Shown here: piece by piece, positions 42,124 to 62,273 of the stretch
Position numbering within the stretch: the stretch's first letter is position 1
How the letters are laid out: every line of letters begins with the position of its first letter
From: Bacteroidota bacterium
GTDB taxonomy: Bacteria; Bacteroidota; Ignavibacteria; Kryptoniales; JAKASW01
NCBI GenBank assembly: GCA_021812985.1
Contig: JAKAMG010000002.1
Coordinates: forward strand, 33,779-97,778
Length of the DNA: 64,000 nucleotides
Reading direction: 5' to 3'
The notes under the pieces: model-generated
Seen by the model: only the letters and a program-made list of their open reading frames with translations
Told to the model about the DNA's origin: nothing
Database searches by the model: none
Made by a program: the position numbers and the translations under genes

Positions 42124-42837
42124 TTACACGTATCCGGCGTTCTTCATGCTGAGATATCCGCCGGGGCCGACGATGATGTGATCGTGGACCGGGATGTCCA
42201 GGAACTCGCCTGAGTAAACGAGGTCCTTCGTGATCTGAATATCCTCCTTGCTCGGGTCGAGTTTTCCGCTCGGATGGTTGTGCACAACAATCACGCTCGC
42301 GGCTTCCTCGAGGATCGCGAACTTGAAGACCGCTCTTGCATCAACCAGGCTGGCGCTCAACGTCCCTTCCGTCATTGTCTTTACGCGCTTCACTCTACCG
42401 GAAGTGCTGAGTGCTATCACCTTGAAGATTTCCCTTTTCTCGCCTGCAAAGTCGGCCATGATGAATCTGTATACCGCTTCAGGATTGTTCAGTAGAGGAG
42501 TGTCCGTCACCGGCGTTTTCTGTACCCTCCTTCCAACTTCAAATGCCGCGGAAAGCGTAACCGCCTTCACAATGCCAATGCCGGAGATGCTGGAGAGTTC
42601 GAGAGCGTCTCTCATCGAAAGAAGAGAAAGTGAATTATCGAAGGCCATGAGGAGATCCCGCGCCACGTCGATGGCGGTGCGCGAACTCGTCTTCATTCGG
42701 GCGCCTGTCCTGAGGAGAATCGCAAGAAGTTCTACGTCTGTGAGCTTTGTGGCACCGCGCGAGAGAAGTTTTTCCCTCGGTTTTTCGCTCTCGGGCCATT
42801 CGCGGAGAGTTCGCGTGGTCGTGGATTTGTCAGACAT
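42124..42837 (-). CDS. radC: RadC-family JAB/MPN domain protein
   Basis: 237 aa; REKLLSRGATKLTDVELLAILLRTG, HNHPSGKLDPSKEDIQITKDL. Confidence 0.95.
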   Translation of the reverse strand: MSDKSTTTRTLREWPESEKPREKLLSRGATKLTDVELLAILLRTGARMKTSSRTAIDVARDLLMAFDNSLSLLSMRDALELSSISGIGIVKAVTLSAAFEVGRRVQKTPVTDTPLLNNPEAVYRFIMADFAGEKREIFKVIALSTSGRVKRVKTMTEGTLSASLVDARAVFKFAILEEAASVIVVHNHPSGKLDPSKEDIQITKDLVYSGEFLDIPVHDHIIVGPGGYLSMKNAGYV

Positions 42838-54461: not shown

Positions 54462-57400
54462 TTACGATTTCGCGAGCGCCCGCTGTACGGTCTGCAGGAG
54501 AGCCTCAGACGTGAACGGCTTTGTCAGAGAAAATTCCATCTCTCCGATACCGGGGATGTTTCCCGACTGGGGGAGTCCGCTCATCACGATAATGCGCATC
54601 TTCGGATTGATTCTCCTCATCGACCTGATTGTGGCTGCTCCGTCCAGACGCGGCATCATCATGTCCGTTATGACGAGCGCTATTTCGTCCTTGCGTTCGA
54701 CAAACTGTTCCATTCCGTTCTGACCGTCGACAGCGACAATTGTCCGGTAGCCATAGGCATCGAGTATCGTCTTGGCAATCGTCCTGACGGCAGCCTCGTC
54801 ATCGACGACGAGTATCAGCTCACCATTCCCGACATATTTTTCACTCTCGGCTTCCTCGTTAAGCGGCTGAGCGGGACTCACCTGAGCAGGGAGATATATC
54901 TTGAACGTGGTTCCTTTCCCTTCTTCGCTGTAGACATACACGGCACCGCCGTGGCTCCTGACAATAGTCAACACGGTGGAAAGTCCCAGCCCGGTCCCTT
55001 TTCCCGGCTCTTTTGTCGTAAAGAACGGCTCGAATATCCGATCTATCATGTGACGAGGAATGCCGGTGCCGGTGTCGGTGATGCTCAAGAGAACGTTCGG
55101 ACCCGCAGTAGACTCGAAATGAGATCTGACGAATTGTTCATCGAGGATCACGTTCTCGGCGGATATATCTATGTTGCCTCCGTTTGGCATCGCGTCTCTT
55201 GCGTTCACGCACAGGTTCATCAGCACCTGATGGAGTTGTGTAGCGTCGCCGAGAATCGTCCACAAATTCTTGGGGAGATTCGTGGAGATAGAGATCGACC
55301 TGGGGAACGTGGCCTTTATGATTTTCACAACCTCTTCAGCGAGATGTCTCATTTGGATAAGGGCTCTTTCTCCCTCCATCCCTCGTGCGAAGGAAAGCAC
55401 CTGCTTTATGAGGTCAGCCCCTCTCCTGGCGCTCGTCTCAATCGTGTCGAGAATCGCTGTACCACTCTCGTCAAGAGCCATTCGACGCAGCATACCGAAC
55501 GAGAGGATGATTGGCGCCAGGACGTTGTTGAGATCGTGAGCGATCCCTCCGGCGAGCGTGCCGATGCTTTCGAGCCTCTGGGCCCGGAGAAACTGTGCCT
55601 CGAGTCTTTTCTTCTCTGTGACATCGCGGGAGTTGACTACGATCCCGCGTATCTCGGGAACGTCCAGCATGTTTAGGACCACCGATTCAGAGTCCCGCCA
55701 CGAGCCGTCCCGACGCCTGAAGCGCATCGAAAACGTCTGCACTACAGACGAGGATCCGACGATCATTCTCAGCGCCTCGATGAGCTTTTTCGAATCGTCG
55801 GGATGGACCAGGTCAAAGGCGGTTTTCCCCGTGAGTTCTTCGGCGGTAAATCCCATACGTGAAACCGCCGGACTCATGTAAACGATCCTTCCCCCCGCGT
55901 CTATGATCGAAAATATGTCCGAAGAGCGCTCTATTAATGAGCGGAAACGAACCTCGCTTTGGGTCAGCCTCCGCTCTACCTCCTTGCGTTTTGTAATGTC
56001 CTGCGCCATGACGAGCGCCGCCCTGCGCCCCATGAATTCCAGCGCATGTGAGTCGATCTGAACATCGATGGTTGAGCCGTCCTTCCTGCGGTGCCTCCAC
56101 TCGCCGGAATGCTGAAGGACCGGACGCCTCTCGGAAAGATTCTTCATCAGCCGCGGCACATCCTCACGTGGGTGGATATCCGTCAGCGTCATCTCGAGCA
56201 GTTCGCCGCGCGAATACCCCAGCGACTCGGTCAGTGCCTCGTTAACTTCCAGAAAACGGAGCGTCTCTAGATCGTACGTGAACATAGGGTACGGGTTGTT
56301 CGCGAAGGAGAGTCTGAAGGAGGATTCGCTCTCGGCGAGTTTCCGCTCAGACATCTTCTTTTCAGTTATGTCCCTGGCCGCTCCTACAATTCTTACCGGC
56401 CTCCGCTCGGCATCATAAACGATGTATGCCCGGTCGAGAATATCTGAATAAGATCCGTCAGACCTCCTCAGCCGGTACTCCACTGACCAGGAATCTCCGC
56501 CGGAGCGCATAACTGCATCGGTGACGGAGATAACGCGCGAGACGTCCTCCGGATGAATATGTTTACGCCAGAACTCAACAGTGGGATTGACATCTTTCGG
56601 GCTGTAGCCAAGGAAACTCCAGAGTGTCTCGCTCCACTCGGACGTCCCCATCAGCAGGTTTGCTTCCCAAATCATATCGTGAGACGCGAGCGTCAGGAGG
56701 CGCGTTCTGACCTCGCTCTCCCTGAGCTCGGCCACGTTACGCTCGACTTCCTCCTTCGATACTTTGAGGTCTGCAGCCATTCGGTTGAAGGCTCGGCCAA
56801 GCGAGGCAAGCTCGTCGCTCCCCTTCTCCTCTATTCTGTAGTCGAGGTTCCCGCGTCCCAATTGACGCGCTCCCTCTTCCAGACCGCTTATCTGTCCGGC
56901 GACTCTCCTGGAAAGCCACCGCGCCAGAAGGAGGGAGAATATGATTGTGAGGAGCACGGTCGCAGTTATCGTCGCGTTCACCTCGAAGATGAACTGTCTC
57001 TGAATGAGGAGAGACCCGTAGGAGTTCAGCAGGACGGCTCCTCCTATATTTCCGGCCGCGTCCCTGACAGGAACAACCACCCATGTCATAGGTTTGCCGC
57101 CACCGGGTTCGGGTACTTGGAATTTCCGATGATATCCGTCGCGCAGGGTCTTCTCAACCTCATTGCTCATATCGTAGTCGTACCTCTGCCCGATGCTTTC
57201 CCGGCGAATGTCCGCCACGACTCGTTTCTGCGCGTTGACGACAACTACGTTGTAGCCGTCTTCGGTGCTAAGCCGCTGAATTAGCGTGTCCAGTTCCCTC
57301 GAACCCGCAAGGCCCTCCTTCGAGCCGGGTTTCAGTTGAAGTGACATTATAGCCGCGACAGCATTAGCGGTCCTGGTCGCGTTCCTCTCAGCCCTCCTCA

Positions 57401-57500
57401 GCCCTTCAAGTATCTGCTCATAGGCAAGCACGCCGCCGGCTATGAAAACTATAACCGGGAAAATCAGGAATGACGCCGCAAGTTTTCTCGACAGTGTAAT
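54462..57500 (-). CDS. Membrane hybrid sensor histidine kinase (extracytoplasmic sensor-TM-HAMP-PAS x3-HisKA-HATPase-REC); start extended here to ATT at 57500
   Basis: ORF track gives 989 aa from GTG 57431; in-frame upstream codons encode a TM helix (ITLSRKLAASFLIFPVIVFIAGGVLAYEQI) behind SD GGGAGGG; HisKA GGIAHDLNNVLAP, REC VITDMMMPRLDG. Confidence 0.85.
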   Translation of the reverse strand: MTLSRKLAASFLIFPVIVFIAGGVLAYEQILEGLRRAERNATRTANAVAAIMSLQLKPGSKEGLAGSRELDTLIQRLSTEDGYNVVVVNAQKRVVADIRRESIGQRYDYDMSNEVEKTLRDGYHRKFQVPEPGGGKPMTWVVVPVRDAAGNIGGAVLLNSYGSLLIQRQFIFEVNATITATVLLTIIFSLLLARWLSRRVAGQISGLEEGARQLGRGNLDYRIEEKGSDELASLGRAFNRMAADLKVSKEEVERNVAELRESEVRTRLLTLASHDMIWEANLLMGTSEWSETLWSFLGYSPKDVNPTVEFWRKHIHPEDVSRVISVTDAVMRSGGDSWSVEYRLRRSDGSYSDILDRAYIVYDAERRPVRIVGAARDITEKKMSERKLAESESSFRLSFANNPYPMFTYDLETLRFLEVNEALTESLGYSRGELLEMTLTDIHPREDVPRLMKNLSERRPVLQHSGEWRHRRKDGSTIDVQIDSHALEFMGRRAALVMAQDITKRKEVERRLTQSEVRFRSLIERSSDIFSIIDAGGRIVYMSPAVSRMGFTAEELTGKTAFDLVHPDDSKKLIEALRMIVGSSSVVQTFSMRFRRRDGSWRDSESVVLNMLDVPEIRGIVVNSRDVTEKKRLEAQFLRAQRLESIGTLAGGIAHDLNNVLAPIILSFGMLRRMALDESGTAILDTIETSARRGADLIKQVLSFARGMEGERALIQMRHLAEEVVKIIKATFPRSISISTNLPKNLWTILGDATQLHQVLMNLCVNARDAMPNGGNIDISAENVILDEQFVRSHFESTAGPNVLLSITDTGTGIPRHMIDRIFEPFFTTKEPGKGTGLGLSTVLTIVRSHGGAVYVYSEEGKGTTFKIYLPAQVSPAQPLNEEAESEKYVGNGELILVVDDEAAVRTIAKTILDAYGYRTIVAVDGQNGMEQFVERKDEIALVITDMMMPRLDGAATIRSMRRINPKMRIIVMSGLPQSGNIPGIGEMEFSLTKPFTSEALLQTVQRALAKS

Positions 57501-57967
57501 TGCTCAGCCCTCCCATAAGACTTTATTTATGAAGTGGCGGGAAAAATTCAGGACCAAGACAGATGGTACTCCACCGGAGCCAATTAACCTGACCTCCCCT
57601 CTCGAGCGGATACAGTACACCCCGAACTTGTCTGGTGAAGATGAATCCATACTCCCATCCCTGACTTAATCGCGCAACGCGAACCTTGCCCTCCAAGGGC
57701 CGCCTTGCTTCGAAGCTTCGATGCAGCCGTTGCCTAACGCCGCCGGAAGAAAAACATTCCCGAAAGCATACTATTCAGGAATCCGGCAAGAGCATCATTC
57801 TGAGTGCCCGGCGTCCTGTTCAAAATTACATCTTCCCCCTTCAGAATCAAGATACACGCCGTTCGACTGGAGTACGTGAAAGAGACCTCGAATTGCCGGT
57901 TCTTCGAGCCGTCTTATCTCCTATATAGAACGGAGACGAACAACCGGAAAAACCGGCAAGCGTCTCC

Positions 57968-58338
57968 TAATGATTGTGCGAGTGGCCGCCGTGCTCGTGA
58001 TGATGATGAAAGGTCGGTCCGTTTGTGACCGGAAGCTTCCCCTCTGATGCGAGTCTCACGGCTTCTTCGACAGGGATGCCGGCCACTACATTCACCTCGA
58101 CCTTAAATTTCTCAGCGACCTGGTACGCGTGGGGACCGATAGCGCCACAGATCATTTTCTGTACACCGGACTTCGCAGTGTCACGAATCACGAGATGCGG
58201 ATCGACACCATCACCGTTCACCATGACGTCGAGAGACTTGCTCTCGTCATCGTATATCAGAAAATACGGCGACCTGCCGAAATGGTCGCTCACACCGCTT
58301 TTCAGTGTATTACCTACAGATGCAACTAGATATTTCAT
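57968..58338 (-). CDS. NifB/NifX-type (dinitrogenase Fe-Mo cofactor biosynthesis family) small protein with His-rich tail (the ORF track ends this frame at 57967)
   Basis: MKYLVASVGNTLKSGVSDHFGRSPYFLIYD...MICGAIGPHAYQVAEKFKVEVNVVAGIPVEEAV; tail HHHHEHGGHSHNH. Confidence 0.88.
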
Positions 58339-58401
58339 TTTACCCTCAATGATATAGCTTTTTAGAATTGGCCGGGGCAACCCGCCCACGGCCGTTAATT
58401 T

Positions 58402-58626
58402 TCATCCCTTGCTGAACGAGATGAAGTAATGCGTTCCAAGCCCGACGAAGGACTCTTCACTGAAACCGAACGCCCCCGCCTTGGCCTTTAGCACGCTCTT
58501 GGAGAACCTGATCGATCTCAGAGGACCGGACGGCGTCTCCGTATGAAACTCGATCATATTCAGGCGGGCAGCATGGGGGAGCGTCTCCCATAGAGCCGGT
58601 TCTTTCAGCTTCATCCGGCCTTTCAT
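58402..58626 (-). CDS. Small uncharacterised protein, overlapping the upstream Cys-module gene
   Basis: Start set at MKGRMKLKEPALW; start codon overlaps the preceding gene's stop; no family recognised. Confidence 0.6.
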   Translation of the reverse strand: MKGRMKLKEPALWETLPHAARLNMIEFHTETPSGPLRSIRFSKSVLKAKAGAFGFSEESFVGLGTHYFISFSKG

Positions 58627-59612
58627 CAGCCCATCATAGCCATGTTCATCGGTGCCTCGCCTGAGAGACAATCTACCTCCTCATCGGTCAGGCCTATCTG
58701 GGCGGCTACGCAACTCAATCCTTTCTTCATGACGTCGAATTTCCATTCGTCTCTCAGAATCGTCGCGAGATATTCCTGCCATCCTTCCTTCAGCGGGAAG
58801 GCTTTGATGAATCTCTTGTATATGTCAGGAGTGTGATCGTAAACGGAAATCAGTTGCTTGAGCGAATACTTGACCTTATCCAGCGCGTGAGGGACCGCCA
58901 CGCATTTCTGCGGCATAAGAGGACAGGTGATGGATTCCCTCTGAGAGGAGAACTCGAAGAACTTGGAGCACATCGAGCAAAAATACTTTCCCGTATCTGC
59001 CTTGCCAATTATATCCATCTCATCCAGAAAGATTTCCTTTTCTATCCCGAGTTCATCCTTCAGAACTTCGATGGCCGCTCCGAGGATCGGAAAAAGCTTC
59101 TTCTTCTCCCAGACTTTGCCCAGATCTGTAATGACGAAGACAATGCCTGCCTCGGTGACGCGCTGTGCCGTTTCGCTCCCGCTGACCGTGATCAGGAAGC
59201 TCTTGAGAGTCTGAAGAGGTTCGTTCTTATACTCGAAGCGCCACTCCTTCAGAAACTCCAGGTATGCCTCCGCCCACTTTCTGCCGACACTGCGCGGATC
59301 GTCCCCCGCGAGAAAATTCATCATCTTCTGGGGCACCTTCGGATAAAAAAGTCCGAACTTCTCTATGCTTACGGTGGATTCGGGGCGCATGACTTCCACC
59401 GGGACCGGGGTATTGATGCACATCTTCGGCATGTACGGGCAAACAGGCTTGTCCATGTCAAAAAGGAGTTTGCACGTCACGCACCAGTATTTGTTCGACG
59501 CGGAGTAAACGCCTGGCGGCATTTTGCCCACCCGCTCCATCATCGCTTGCTTATCCATCATCATAATATTCTTCAGCTCCCGCTTCGTTGTCGAGTATCG
59601 GCCCGACTTCAT
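58626..59612 (-). CDS. Uncharacterised protein with two copies of a four-cysteine module
   Basis: 328 aa; KYWCVTCKLLFDMDKPVCPYMPKMC and KYFCSMCSKFFEFSSQRESITCPLMPQKC. Confidence 0.75.
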   Translation of the reverse strand: MKSGRYSTTKRELKNIMMMDKQAMMERVGKMPPGVYSASNKYWCVTCKLLFDMDKPVCPYMPKMCINTPVPVEVMRPESTVSIEKFGLFYPKVPQKMMNFLAGDDPRSVGRKWAEAYLEFLKEWRFEYKNEPLQTLKSFLITVSGSETAQRVTEAGIVFVITDLGKVWEKKKLFPILGAAIEVLKDELGIEKEIFLDEMDIIGKADTGKYFCSMCSKFFEFSSQRESITCPLMPQKCVAVPHALDKVKYSLKQLISVYDHTPDIYKRFIKAFPLKEGWQEYLATILRDEWKFDVMKKGLSCVAAQIGLTDEEVDCLSGEAPMNMAMMG

Positions 59613-59904
59613 CCCATTCCGGTATCCGCCGTCGGCCGGTTGAATTCGTCAGTATGATGCCGAAAGCGGCCAAAAGATGCGGCTATTATCAAGACGGTCG
59701 AGCCTCCGGTTTTATTGTAACCAGATAACCCCAGGCCATGGAAGTTCACTCCCGGCCGTGTCACGACTTTCATTATCACATATTAAATTCAGAGGAAGGG
59801 TATGCGCGGGAAAGACCCGGCCACCGTGTCGATCGGGTCAGGCGCAATAAGTGAGCGGTCCCGTCTGTGACGGAAATATATTTCGCGTTGCGGGAGGCAA
59901 ATCT

Positions 59905-60594
59905 ATGGAAGCGAATCTGCTGGATGTCAGGGATTTCTCCGTGAGCCTGGAGAAAGTGCCTGTAATATCGAACCTCAGTTTCGCCGTTCAGTCCGGCGAA
60001 TTTCTCACCATACTTGGTCCCAACGGGTCCGGTAAAACCGTCTTGCTGAAGGCGCTTCTCGGGCTCCTGCCTCACACCGGCGAGTTGAAGTGGCGTGGGA
60101 AACCGAGGATCGGATACCTGCCGCAGGGGTTCAACCAAATATCTGTGAGGGACCTCCCTCTTACCGTAACGGATTTCTTTGGCTTGAAGAAGATTGGAGC
60201 AGCGAAGATACCCGCTTTGCTCGAGCTTGTAGGTATAGACGGTTCCGTGATCGGCAGGAAGGCCGGACACCTTTCCGGCGGAGAATTTCAGAGGATGCTC
60301 GTCGCGTGGGTCCTGGCCTCGAATCCGGACGTGCTGTTCCTGGACGAGCCGACTACCGCCATCGACGCCGCCGGCGGTGAGACAATTTATTCCCTGCTAA
60401 AAAAGAACTGGCAGAATCAGAGCCTGACAATACTGAACGTGACGCACGATCTCAACATCGTTTACGCCCACTCCACGCACGTCCTCTGCCTTTCAAGATT
60501 CGGACACAAGTGTTTCGGTGTTCCCAAAGACGTCCTGACCCCGGATGTCCTTCACGACCTATACGGGACAGAAGTGAAACTTTATTCGCATTGA
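59905..60594 (+). CDS. Metal-type ABC transporter ATP-binding protein (ZnuC/MntB-like)
   Basis: Start ATG 59905 behind GGGAGG; Walker A GPNGSGKT, LSGGEFQRM, Walker B VLFLDEPTTAID. Confidence 0.88.
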   Translation: MEANLLDVRDFSVSLEKVPVISNLSFAVQSGEFLTILGPNGSGKTVLLKALLGLLPHTGELKWRGKPRIGYLPQGFNQISVRDLPLTVTDFFGLKKIGAAKIPALLELVGIDGSVIGRKAGHLSGGEFQRMLVAWVLASNPDVLFLDEPTTAIDAAGGETIYSLLKKNWQNQSLTILNVTHDLNIVYAHSTHVLCLSRFGHKCFGVPKDVLTPDVLHDLYGTEVKLYSH

Positions 60595-60608
60595 GGAGGG
60601 TCAAAGAG

Positions 60609-61376
60609 ATGTCAGAGCAGTTACTACTTAGTTTGATCAGCGGCATTTCGATCGCCGGTTCGGCGGCATACCTGGGAACGCTAATGCTATCGAGAAAGAT
60701 GGCCGTCATAGCCGGACCGCTCGGCCACCTCGCCCTTCCGGGCGCGGCGCTCGCCATCGTTTACGGTTTCAGCATCTCGCTCGGCGCGTTCCCATTCGTC
60801 GTGCTCGGAATAATCGTGATCTGGCTCCTCGAGATCAGGACGAAGCTTGCGATGGAAGCATTGACCGCAATCGTATTCGCCACTGGCGTGGCAACCGCTT
60901 TCCTCTTCCTCCCGATAGACAAGGCGGAGGCGGCGCTGGTGGGAGATATTTCAAGAGTCGGTGTTCATGAAACTGTCGCGTCGCTGATATTAGGTTCGAT
61001 CGTCGTTGCGACGACACGCCGCAGCTACTCGAGGATAATGCTCATAAACATACATGAAGATGTCGCGAGGAGCGAGGGAGTAAATGTGAAGTTGTATAAC
61101 CTGGTTTATCTTTCAGCCATAGCGATAGTCGTGGCTCTTGGTGTAGACCTCGTGGGTGGCCTGATGACCGCGGCCCTCGTGGCGATCCCGGCGGCGGCGG
61201 CCAGGAACGTGAGCCGCACCCTCAGTCAGTTTGGCACGGCGGCAGGATTGTTCGGAGTCATTTCGTCAACGCTGGGGATAATCGTATCGGCAATGACGCA
61301 GCTTCCAGCCGGCCCGCTCGTCATACTCACAAGCGCGGTTATATTTCTCGTCACCGTGCCGCTAGCGAAGGCCTGA
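60609..61376 (+). CDS. Metal-type ABC transporter permease (ZnuB family)
   Basis: Start MSEQLLLSLISGISIAGSAAYLG; FLGTLMLSRKMAVIAGPLGHLALPGAALAIVYG; GVDLVGGLMTAALVAIPAAAARNVSRTL. Confidence 0.85.
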   Translation: MSEQLLLSLISGISIAGSAAYLGTLMLSRKMAVIAGPLGHLALPGAALAIVYGFSISLGAFPFVVLGIIVIWLLEIRTKLAMEALTAIVFATGVATAFLFLPIDKAEAALVGDISRVGVHETVASLILGSIVVATTRRSYSRIMLINIHEDVARSEGVNVKLYNLVYLSAIAIVVALGVDLVGGLMTAALVAIPAAAARNVSRTLSQFGTAAGLFGVISSTLGIIVSAMTQLPAGPLVILTSAVIFLVTVPLAKA

Positions 61377-61381
61377 ATCCG

Positions 61382-61711
61382 TTATTCTTCGCCCGAGTGT
61401 GGGTGCTCATGAGGGTTGAATTCCGGATGTTCCTCTCGCCACCTCTTCCACCGTTCAAACTGGCGGCGGCGCGAAAAGTAAGTCCGCGGTCCCCGTCCCA
61501 GGTTGCCGAAGAGAATCCTCGCCAGCACGAGCAGACCCAGCGCCTGCCAGTAACCTATTGCCTTCAGCCCGAATATCGCGGGCACGAGCCCGTTCCACAA
61601 CAGCATAAGGATCAGGCTCGCCAGCGCCAGGAACACCAGCATGAACGGCAGTCCGAAGACGAACCACAATCCCTTTCTATGCTTGAACTCATGATTATGC
61701 ATGCTACACAT
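61382..61711 (-). CDS. Small His-rich membrane protein, downstream of and overlapping an ECF sigma gene
   Basis: 109 aa; two TM helices, LWNGLVPAIFGLKAIGYWQALGLLVLARILFG; His at both ends (MCSMHNHEFKH; HPEFNPHEHPHSGEE). Confidence 0.75.
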   Translation of the reverse strand: MCSMHNHEFKHRKGLWFVFGLPFMLVFLALASLILMLLWNGLVPAIFGLKAIGYWQALGLLVLARILFGNLGRGPRTYFSRRRQFERWKRWREEHPEFNPHEHPHSGEE

Positions 61712-62273
61712 TTTCTTTTAACTCCTCGTATAGAATTTTCAATCGTTTTCTCAGAAACAGAACCGCGTACCGCTTTCTTGAGATGAGCGTGTTGATCGGC
61801 TCGCCCTTCATTTCAGCAATTTCTTTGAAACTCATGCCTTCGAACTCATTCATCTCGAATACTTCCCGCTGCTCATTAGGCAACTCGTCGAGCGCGTCTT
61901 CGATCTCGTCCCAGAACTCGTTTTGCCAGTAGACCTCGTCCGGCAGTCCGCCGAGGTCCGGGATCATCTCCTCAAGAGACAGCGCATCCCCCGATTCGTC
62001 CCCCTTCGATCTCAACTTCACGTCGCTGAATGCAGCTGGCTTCTTCTTCCTGCGGGAATCGATGATCCTGTTCTTCGCGACGCGCATCAGCCACGCCGAC
62101 ACTCGATCTATGAACTCGATGCTCTCGAACGAACTGGCAAACTGCAAAAGGACATCCTGCAGTATATCTTCAGCATCATCCCTGTTGGGCACATTTCGCC
62201 GGATAAAACCGAGAAGCTTTCCCTTCTCCTTGTCTATCGTGGCTTCAATTTGCCTTGAGGCAGCTGCTGTCAA
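61704..62273 (-). CDS. ECF-type RNA polymerase sigma factor
   Basis: 189 aa; RRNVPNRDDAEDILQDVLLQFASSF (sigma region 2), ALDELPNEQREVFEMNEFEGMSFKEIAEMKGEPINTLISRKRYA (region 4). Confidence 0.93.
   Translation of the reverse strand: MTAAASRQIEATIDKEKGKLLGFIRRNVPNRDDAEDILQDVLLQFASSFESIEFIDRVSAWLMRVAKNRIIDSRRKKKPAAFSDVKLRSKGDESGDALSLEEMIPDLGGLPDEVYWQNEFWDEIEDALDELPNEQREVFEMNEFEGMSFKEIAEMKGEPINTLISRKRYAVLFLRKRLKILYEELKENV

Follow-up and report, generated by a model that had tools for sequence, protein, structure and literature searches.

The window, a stretch of 64,000 nucleotides from a genome of 3.5 Mb (G000), carries a run of genes for a NifX/ORP-like protein, a two-module cysteine protein (CysP), an ABC transporter pair, a small two-TM protein (HisMem), and an ECF sigma factor. 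These features are listed in Table 1 and were compared across a genus sample of 13 genomes, comprising G000 and its relatives. The original prediction had united the genes of this region (57967 to 62273) in a single metal-handling module. The genes it listed are present, except that the small partner it assigned to CysP is the relic of a methyltransferase gene.

Table 1. Genes and other features of the locus, in window coordinates
Feature	Position	Strand	Basis and remarks
NifX/ORP-like small protein	57967..58338	-	PF02579; 123 aa; His-rich C-terminal tail HHHHEHGGHSHNH
Relic: C-terminal ~63 aa of class I SAM methyltransferase	58402..58647	-	Partial match to intact relatives
CysP, two-module cysteine protein	58626..59564	-	312 aa from conserved MMMD start; ORF reaches 59612
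Promoter-like element GCATCT-N14-GCATCATA	59653..59680	-	Conserved upstream of CysP-NifX
ZnuC-like ABC ATPase	59905..60594	+	ABC_tran above Pfam cut-off
ZnuB-like ABC-3 permease	60609..61376	+	PF00950 above Pfam cut-off
Small two-TM protein (HisMem), MCS[WM]N start	61382..61711	-	Overlaps ECF gene; no family
ECF sigma factor	61704..62273	-	Sigma70_r2 + r4_2

The NifX-like protein passes the Pfam profile PF02579 with 50.4 bits (cut-off, 26.3 bits), and a genome search found exactly one gene of this family in G000. Its sequence relatives in the structural database are 1rdu, MTH1175 (1eo1), a "probable NifB protein" (1o13), and ORP (2wfb). The His-rich end noted originally is kept in 12/12 genus orthologues, with a variable tail sequence. 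The protein resembles MTH1175, 1o13, and the Desulfovibrio ORP as a single-domain member of the PF02579 family with solved orphan relatives, but it is set apart by its His-rich tail and its linkage to the CysP and ECF genes. In comparison with MrpORP, it gives only a weak, partial NCBIfam match, and no nif context was seen. NifX/ORP-like proteins are present also in organisms that do not fix nitrogen, where their role is, to our knowledge, largely open. In relatives, additional genes that look NifX-like by eye are arranged in tandem beside a peptide-deformylase-like gene (L012:17342-18147 and L104:1425-2243). Downstream of NifX in the window (54462-57431) lies a gene for a predicted 989-aa multi-PAS hybrid histidine kinase with a receiver domain; its orthologue is whole in G012, gives a partial match in G009, and has no match in the examined stretches of several other relatives.

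The small ORF beside CysP matched no Pfam or NCBIfam family. Its translation is 51 to 57% identical to residues ~117 to 181 of methyltransferases (180 to 184 aa) that are intact in G012, G002, and G010, and the N-terminal, SAM-binding part was not found in the window. Because the ORF covers only the last ~63 residues of proteins that are whole in relatives, it was rejected as a functional partner of CysP.

The two modules of CysP comprise ~90 residues each, with the cysteine patterns C-x2-C-x10-C-x6-C and C-x2-C-x14-C-x6-C. The two-module architecture proposed originally was confirmed by hhalign, which relates the modules to each other with a probability of 96.5%, and all eight cysteines are invariant among 12 homologues with 51 to 85% identity to the window protein. 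No Pfam or NCBIfam family matched CysP above its cut-off. Membership in a known zinc-ribbon or Fe-S family was considered and rejected, the best E value over 12 members being 0.046, under the curated cut-off. The best E value of the sequence against the PDB was 0.26, and two predicted structures (mean pLDDT, 52.7 and 59.4) gave no PDB match at E ≤ 0.001 with Foldseek; given the low pLDDT and these Foldseek results, no fold is claimed for CysP.

CysP has a narrow distribution. It is encoded in 8/13 genus genomes, always adjoining the NifX-like gene, and was not found in any genome of another genus among 61 relatives; a 396-genome sample of the phylum yielded only chance-level matches apart from the window's own genome. 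A scan of genome contigs returned seven Bacteroidetes metagenome-assembled genomes (MAGs), taken as the genus genomes, and one Ca. Edwardsbacteria MAG. The only finds outside the genus came from the phylum of this MAG, where CysP is present in 4 of the 10 genomes searched. Its neighbors there include a putative lipoprotein, a nitroreductase, and a putative cation-exchanger-type membrane protein, and the NifX, ABC, and ECF genes of the window locus were not detected among them. The conserved metal-related neighborhood that was expected of the locus is thus not seen outside the genus. In Edwardsbacteria, a conserved nitroreductase-family gene lies two genes after CysP (L067:8908-9828).

The ECF sigma factor (189 aa) matches PF04542 and PF08281 above cut-off and shows no region 3 match. 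Orthologues are present in 11/13 genus genomes; neither ECF nor NifX was found in G006, and ECF was not detected in G008, an assembly of 370 contigs. The ECF gene overlaps the start of HisMem by 8 bp, as originally described. The "His-rich" label of the membrane protein does not hold as a family trait: the two-TM core is conserved and the His clusters vary. HisMem matched no Pfam or NCBIfam family and is, judging from its adjacency and the 8-bp overlap, a candidate anti-sigma factor or sensor. The nickel/cobalt-responsive CnrYXH system of Cupriavidus (PMC4803752) likewise pairs an ECF gene with that of a small membrane protein in the vicinity of metal genes, but neither a CnrX-type sensor nor CnrCBAT efflux genes are among the neighbors of the window locus, and the membrane protein of the window locus apparently has two TM segments and a very short N-terminus.

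Within the genus, several of the adjacencies of the window recur, namely, CysP-NifX, ECF-HisMem-NifX, and ZnuCB-CysP, and the lack of conserved neighbors that was originally named as a refutation of the module was not observed there. In all seven genomes whose contig covers both genes, CysP and NifX are direct neighbors on the same strand; in G008, a contig break splits CysP, and its C-terminal end adjoins NifX on another contig. Divergent ZnuC-ZnuB genes lie beside CysP in six genomes (G000, G002, G008, G009, G012, and G001), with NikR and a TonB receptor inserted between them and CysP in G001. The transporter genes are at other positions in G010 and G011, and in G004 the search gave only a 37-residue partial match. 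The ECF-HisMem genes are close to CysP-NifX in G000, G001, G004, G009, and G011. They are also near NifX in G005 and G007, both of which lack CysP and ZnuCB, and the linkage of ECF-HisMem to NifX therefore appears to predate the insertion of the other two. Within the CysP-NifX unit, NifX is the more widespread part. Since these adjacencies recur in different combinations, the evidence favors three units over the single metal module of the original prediction. We interpret the locus as a genus-level synteny block assembled from separable units, namely, ECF with the two-TM protein, CysP-NifX, and the ZnuC/ZnuB-like ABC importer, and assign this explanation, taken as a whole, a probability of about 0.5.

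Alignment of the regions upstream of CysP revealed one block conserved in 8/8 genomes, one of them with a variant, from which the pattern GCAWCY-N14-GCATCAWA was derived. In the 13 genomes searched, exact matches are confined to the CysP-NifX loci and to a site 147 bp ahead of NifX in G010, a genome without CysP. Altogether, the element precedes NifX in three genomes without CysP (G003, G007, and G010), in G003 and G007 in the relaxed form GCAACC-N14-GCATCATA; the CysP gene of G011 has the variant GCGACT-N14-GCATCAAA. The element was present in 11/11 upstream regions and in 0/22000 shuffled upstream regions, a comparison that overstates independence because the pattern was built from the same regions, the G010 match being the independent one. 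Within the window there is a single zero-mismatch match, and two-mismatch matches are at chance level. One-mismatch matches in G000, G001, and G005 fall inside predicted ORFs and were taken as chance. In G005, NifX lacks the element and follows ECF-HisMem and one further gene in the same orientation, and its transcription by read-through from the upstream ECF-HisMem genes is possible. The search of the intergenic region (59613 to 59904) for an operator thus yielded a conserved promoter-like element, which was found neither upstream of the ECF gene nor in the direction of ZnuC, and comparison of the upstream regions revealed no operator common to CysP, ZnuC, and ECF.

Both transporter proteins pass their Pfam cut-offs (ABC_tran and ABC-3), although they score far under the NCBIfam equivalog cut-offs, with 130 of 306 bits for the ZnuC-like and 83 of 284 bits for the ZnuB-like protein. 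The divergent gene pair of the original prediction is thus upheld at the superfamily level, at which the two components of an ABC-3 metal importer, a PF00950 permease and an adjacent ABC ATPase, are both present, and it is likely, by family, that the pair imports a transition metal. No ZnuA-type binding protein (PF01297) was found in the whole genome of G000 at E ≤ 0.001, and no binding protein was seen beside the pair. In G001 and G010, NikR and a TonB-dependent receptor lie beside ZnuC-ZnuB, in clusters at L015:6879-9198 and L053:7095-11677, the latter with a gap of ~0.7 kb between the receptor and ZnuC. A NikR-box-like palindrome, GTGYTAC-N13-GTGSCAC, is located upstream of 6/6 NikR genes found. 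The combination expected of NikR-controlled nickel uptake, NikR with a box at the transporter, is therefore seen at the cluster level in G001 and G010 and not in G000, where NikR is absent and no box was found near ZnuC. One site with a single mismatch to the box, at 42729 of the window, was discarded because it did not exceed the shuffled controls and lies a long way from the transporter genes. Pairs of NikR and TonB-dependent receptor genes without ZnuCB are found in L055, L056, L057, and L058. G000 also contains a full-length match to the [NiFe]-hydrogenase large subunit, which indicates a need for nickel.

The present analysis adds four points to the original prediction: the promoter-like element, the recognition of the small ORF as a relic, the restricted distribution of CysP, and the nickel linkage in relatives. 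The layout of the element, with a variable first hexamer, a fixed spacer, and GCATCAWA, resembles that of an ECF promoter. We infer that the ECF sigma factor of the window locus reads the element and controls CysP-NifX. The element could instead be the operator of a DNA-binding regulator or the promoter of another sigma factor, a reading that we place somewhat short of an even chance. In most genomes it contains a GCATC...GCATC direct repeat with a 20-bp period, equal to two helical turns, and it is absent upstream of the ECF gene. Autoregulation is common among ECF genes. Moreover, a first look at G000 gave ~15 ECF-like candidates, so that another sigma factor could read the element. However, the first half varies (GCATC, GCAAC, and GCGAC), as a -35 element could, while the spacing is fixed, ECF promoters require rigid spacing (15 to 19 bp tested for Mycobacterium tuberculosis SigH; PMC6411747), and the ECF gene is syntenic with NifX. 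It may also be that a slowly rearranging genus simply inherited the gene order, with CysP-NifX, ECF-HisMem, and ZnuCB doing separate jobs. The unrelated flanking genes, for an SDR oxidoreductase and for 411-aa and 115-aa proteins, hold their relative order in relatives, ZnuCB is elsewhere in G010 and G011, and CysP of Edwardsbacteria is without the neighbors of the window locus. Nevertheless, one conserved element lies upstream of CysP-NifX and is retained at NifX where CysP is absent, and ECF-HisMem remains near NifX in G005 and G007 despite the absence of CysP and ZnuCB; we consider separate functions possible and lean against them.

As for the cargo of the transporter, NikR and the TonB receptor beside the pair in two relatives point to nickel. 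A published precedent comes from Caldithrix abyssi, in which NikR-motif loci that combine NikR with TonB receptors and genes for Nik transporters have been described as nickel uptake loci (PMC5317091). The clusters of G001 and G010 resemble these NikMNQO loci in combining NikR, the palindrome, a TonB receptor, and a transporter, but their transporter is of the ABC-3 type, and G000 itself is without NikR. The zinc importers ZnuABC and AztABC share with the window locus an ATPase and a permease of the same families. That the pair imports zinc (or Mn/Fe), with a nickel link at most in the two NikR-adjacent relatives, is given nearly balanced but unfavorable odds: among named families, ZnuC and ZnuB match the two proteins best, and the closest solved permease is ZnuB, followed by Mn permeases, yet the scores are far below the equivalog cut-offs, the genome has no ZnuA-type protein, and NikR and the receptor adjoin the pair in two genomes. 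On balance, nickel would be slightly favored over zinc. Judging from the clusters of G001 and G010, nickel may be the cargo of ZnuCB-like transporters in this group even where annotation would make them zinc importers.

Under the proposed three-unit arrangement, an envelope or metal signal would release the ECF sigma factor, with HisMem perhaps acting as its anti-sigma factor, and the freed sigma factor would transcribe CysP-NifX from the conserved ECF-like element. The two Cys4 sites of CysP may hold a soft metal or an Fe-S center, the NifX-like protein may carry or buffer a metal or metal-sulfur cluster, with its His tail as a metal store, and the ABC pair could provide metal to CysP-NifX. 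It is the protein family and the cysteines that suggest a metal or cluster role for CysP-NifX; a chaperone function and a functional link of the importer to the other two units are conceivable. We regard as unlikely the most specific version, in which CysP and the His-tailed NifX would form an undescribed metal/cluster pair with its own ECF sigma factor acting through GCAWCY-N14-GCATCAWA, coupled to an ABC-3 nickel importer that lacks a classical binding protein. Because this NifX-like protein comes with a conserved promoter element, a partner whose cysteines are invariant, and a sigma factor as candidate regulator, its regulation and its partner are directly testable.

Two further sequences were noted in connection with the element. 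Just downstream of it, several genomes (L012-L017), though not G000, carry another short conserved block, GTCAGGGGAG, which is possibly a leader element. A near copy, GAATCC-N14-GCATCAWA, occupies a conserved intergenic position in G002 (L108:3977-4004) and G012 (L109:4867-4894), ~0.6 kb ahead of genes in an operon-like arrangement that encode a solute-binding protein (SBP_bac_11), a SoxA/TsdA-type cytochrome, and a DsrE-like protein; in G002, a sigma-70-like TTGACA-N17-TAAAAT lies between the near copy and these genes.
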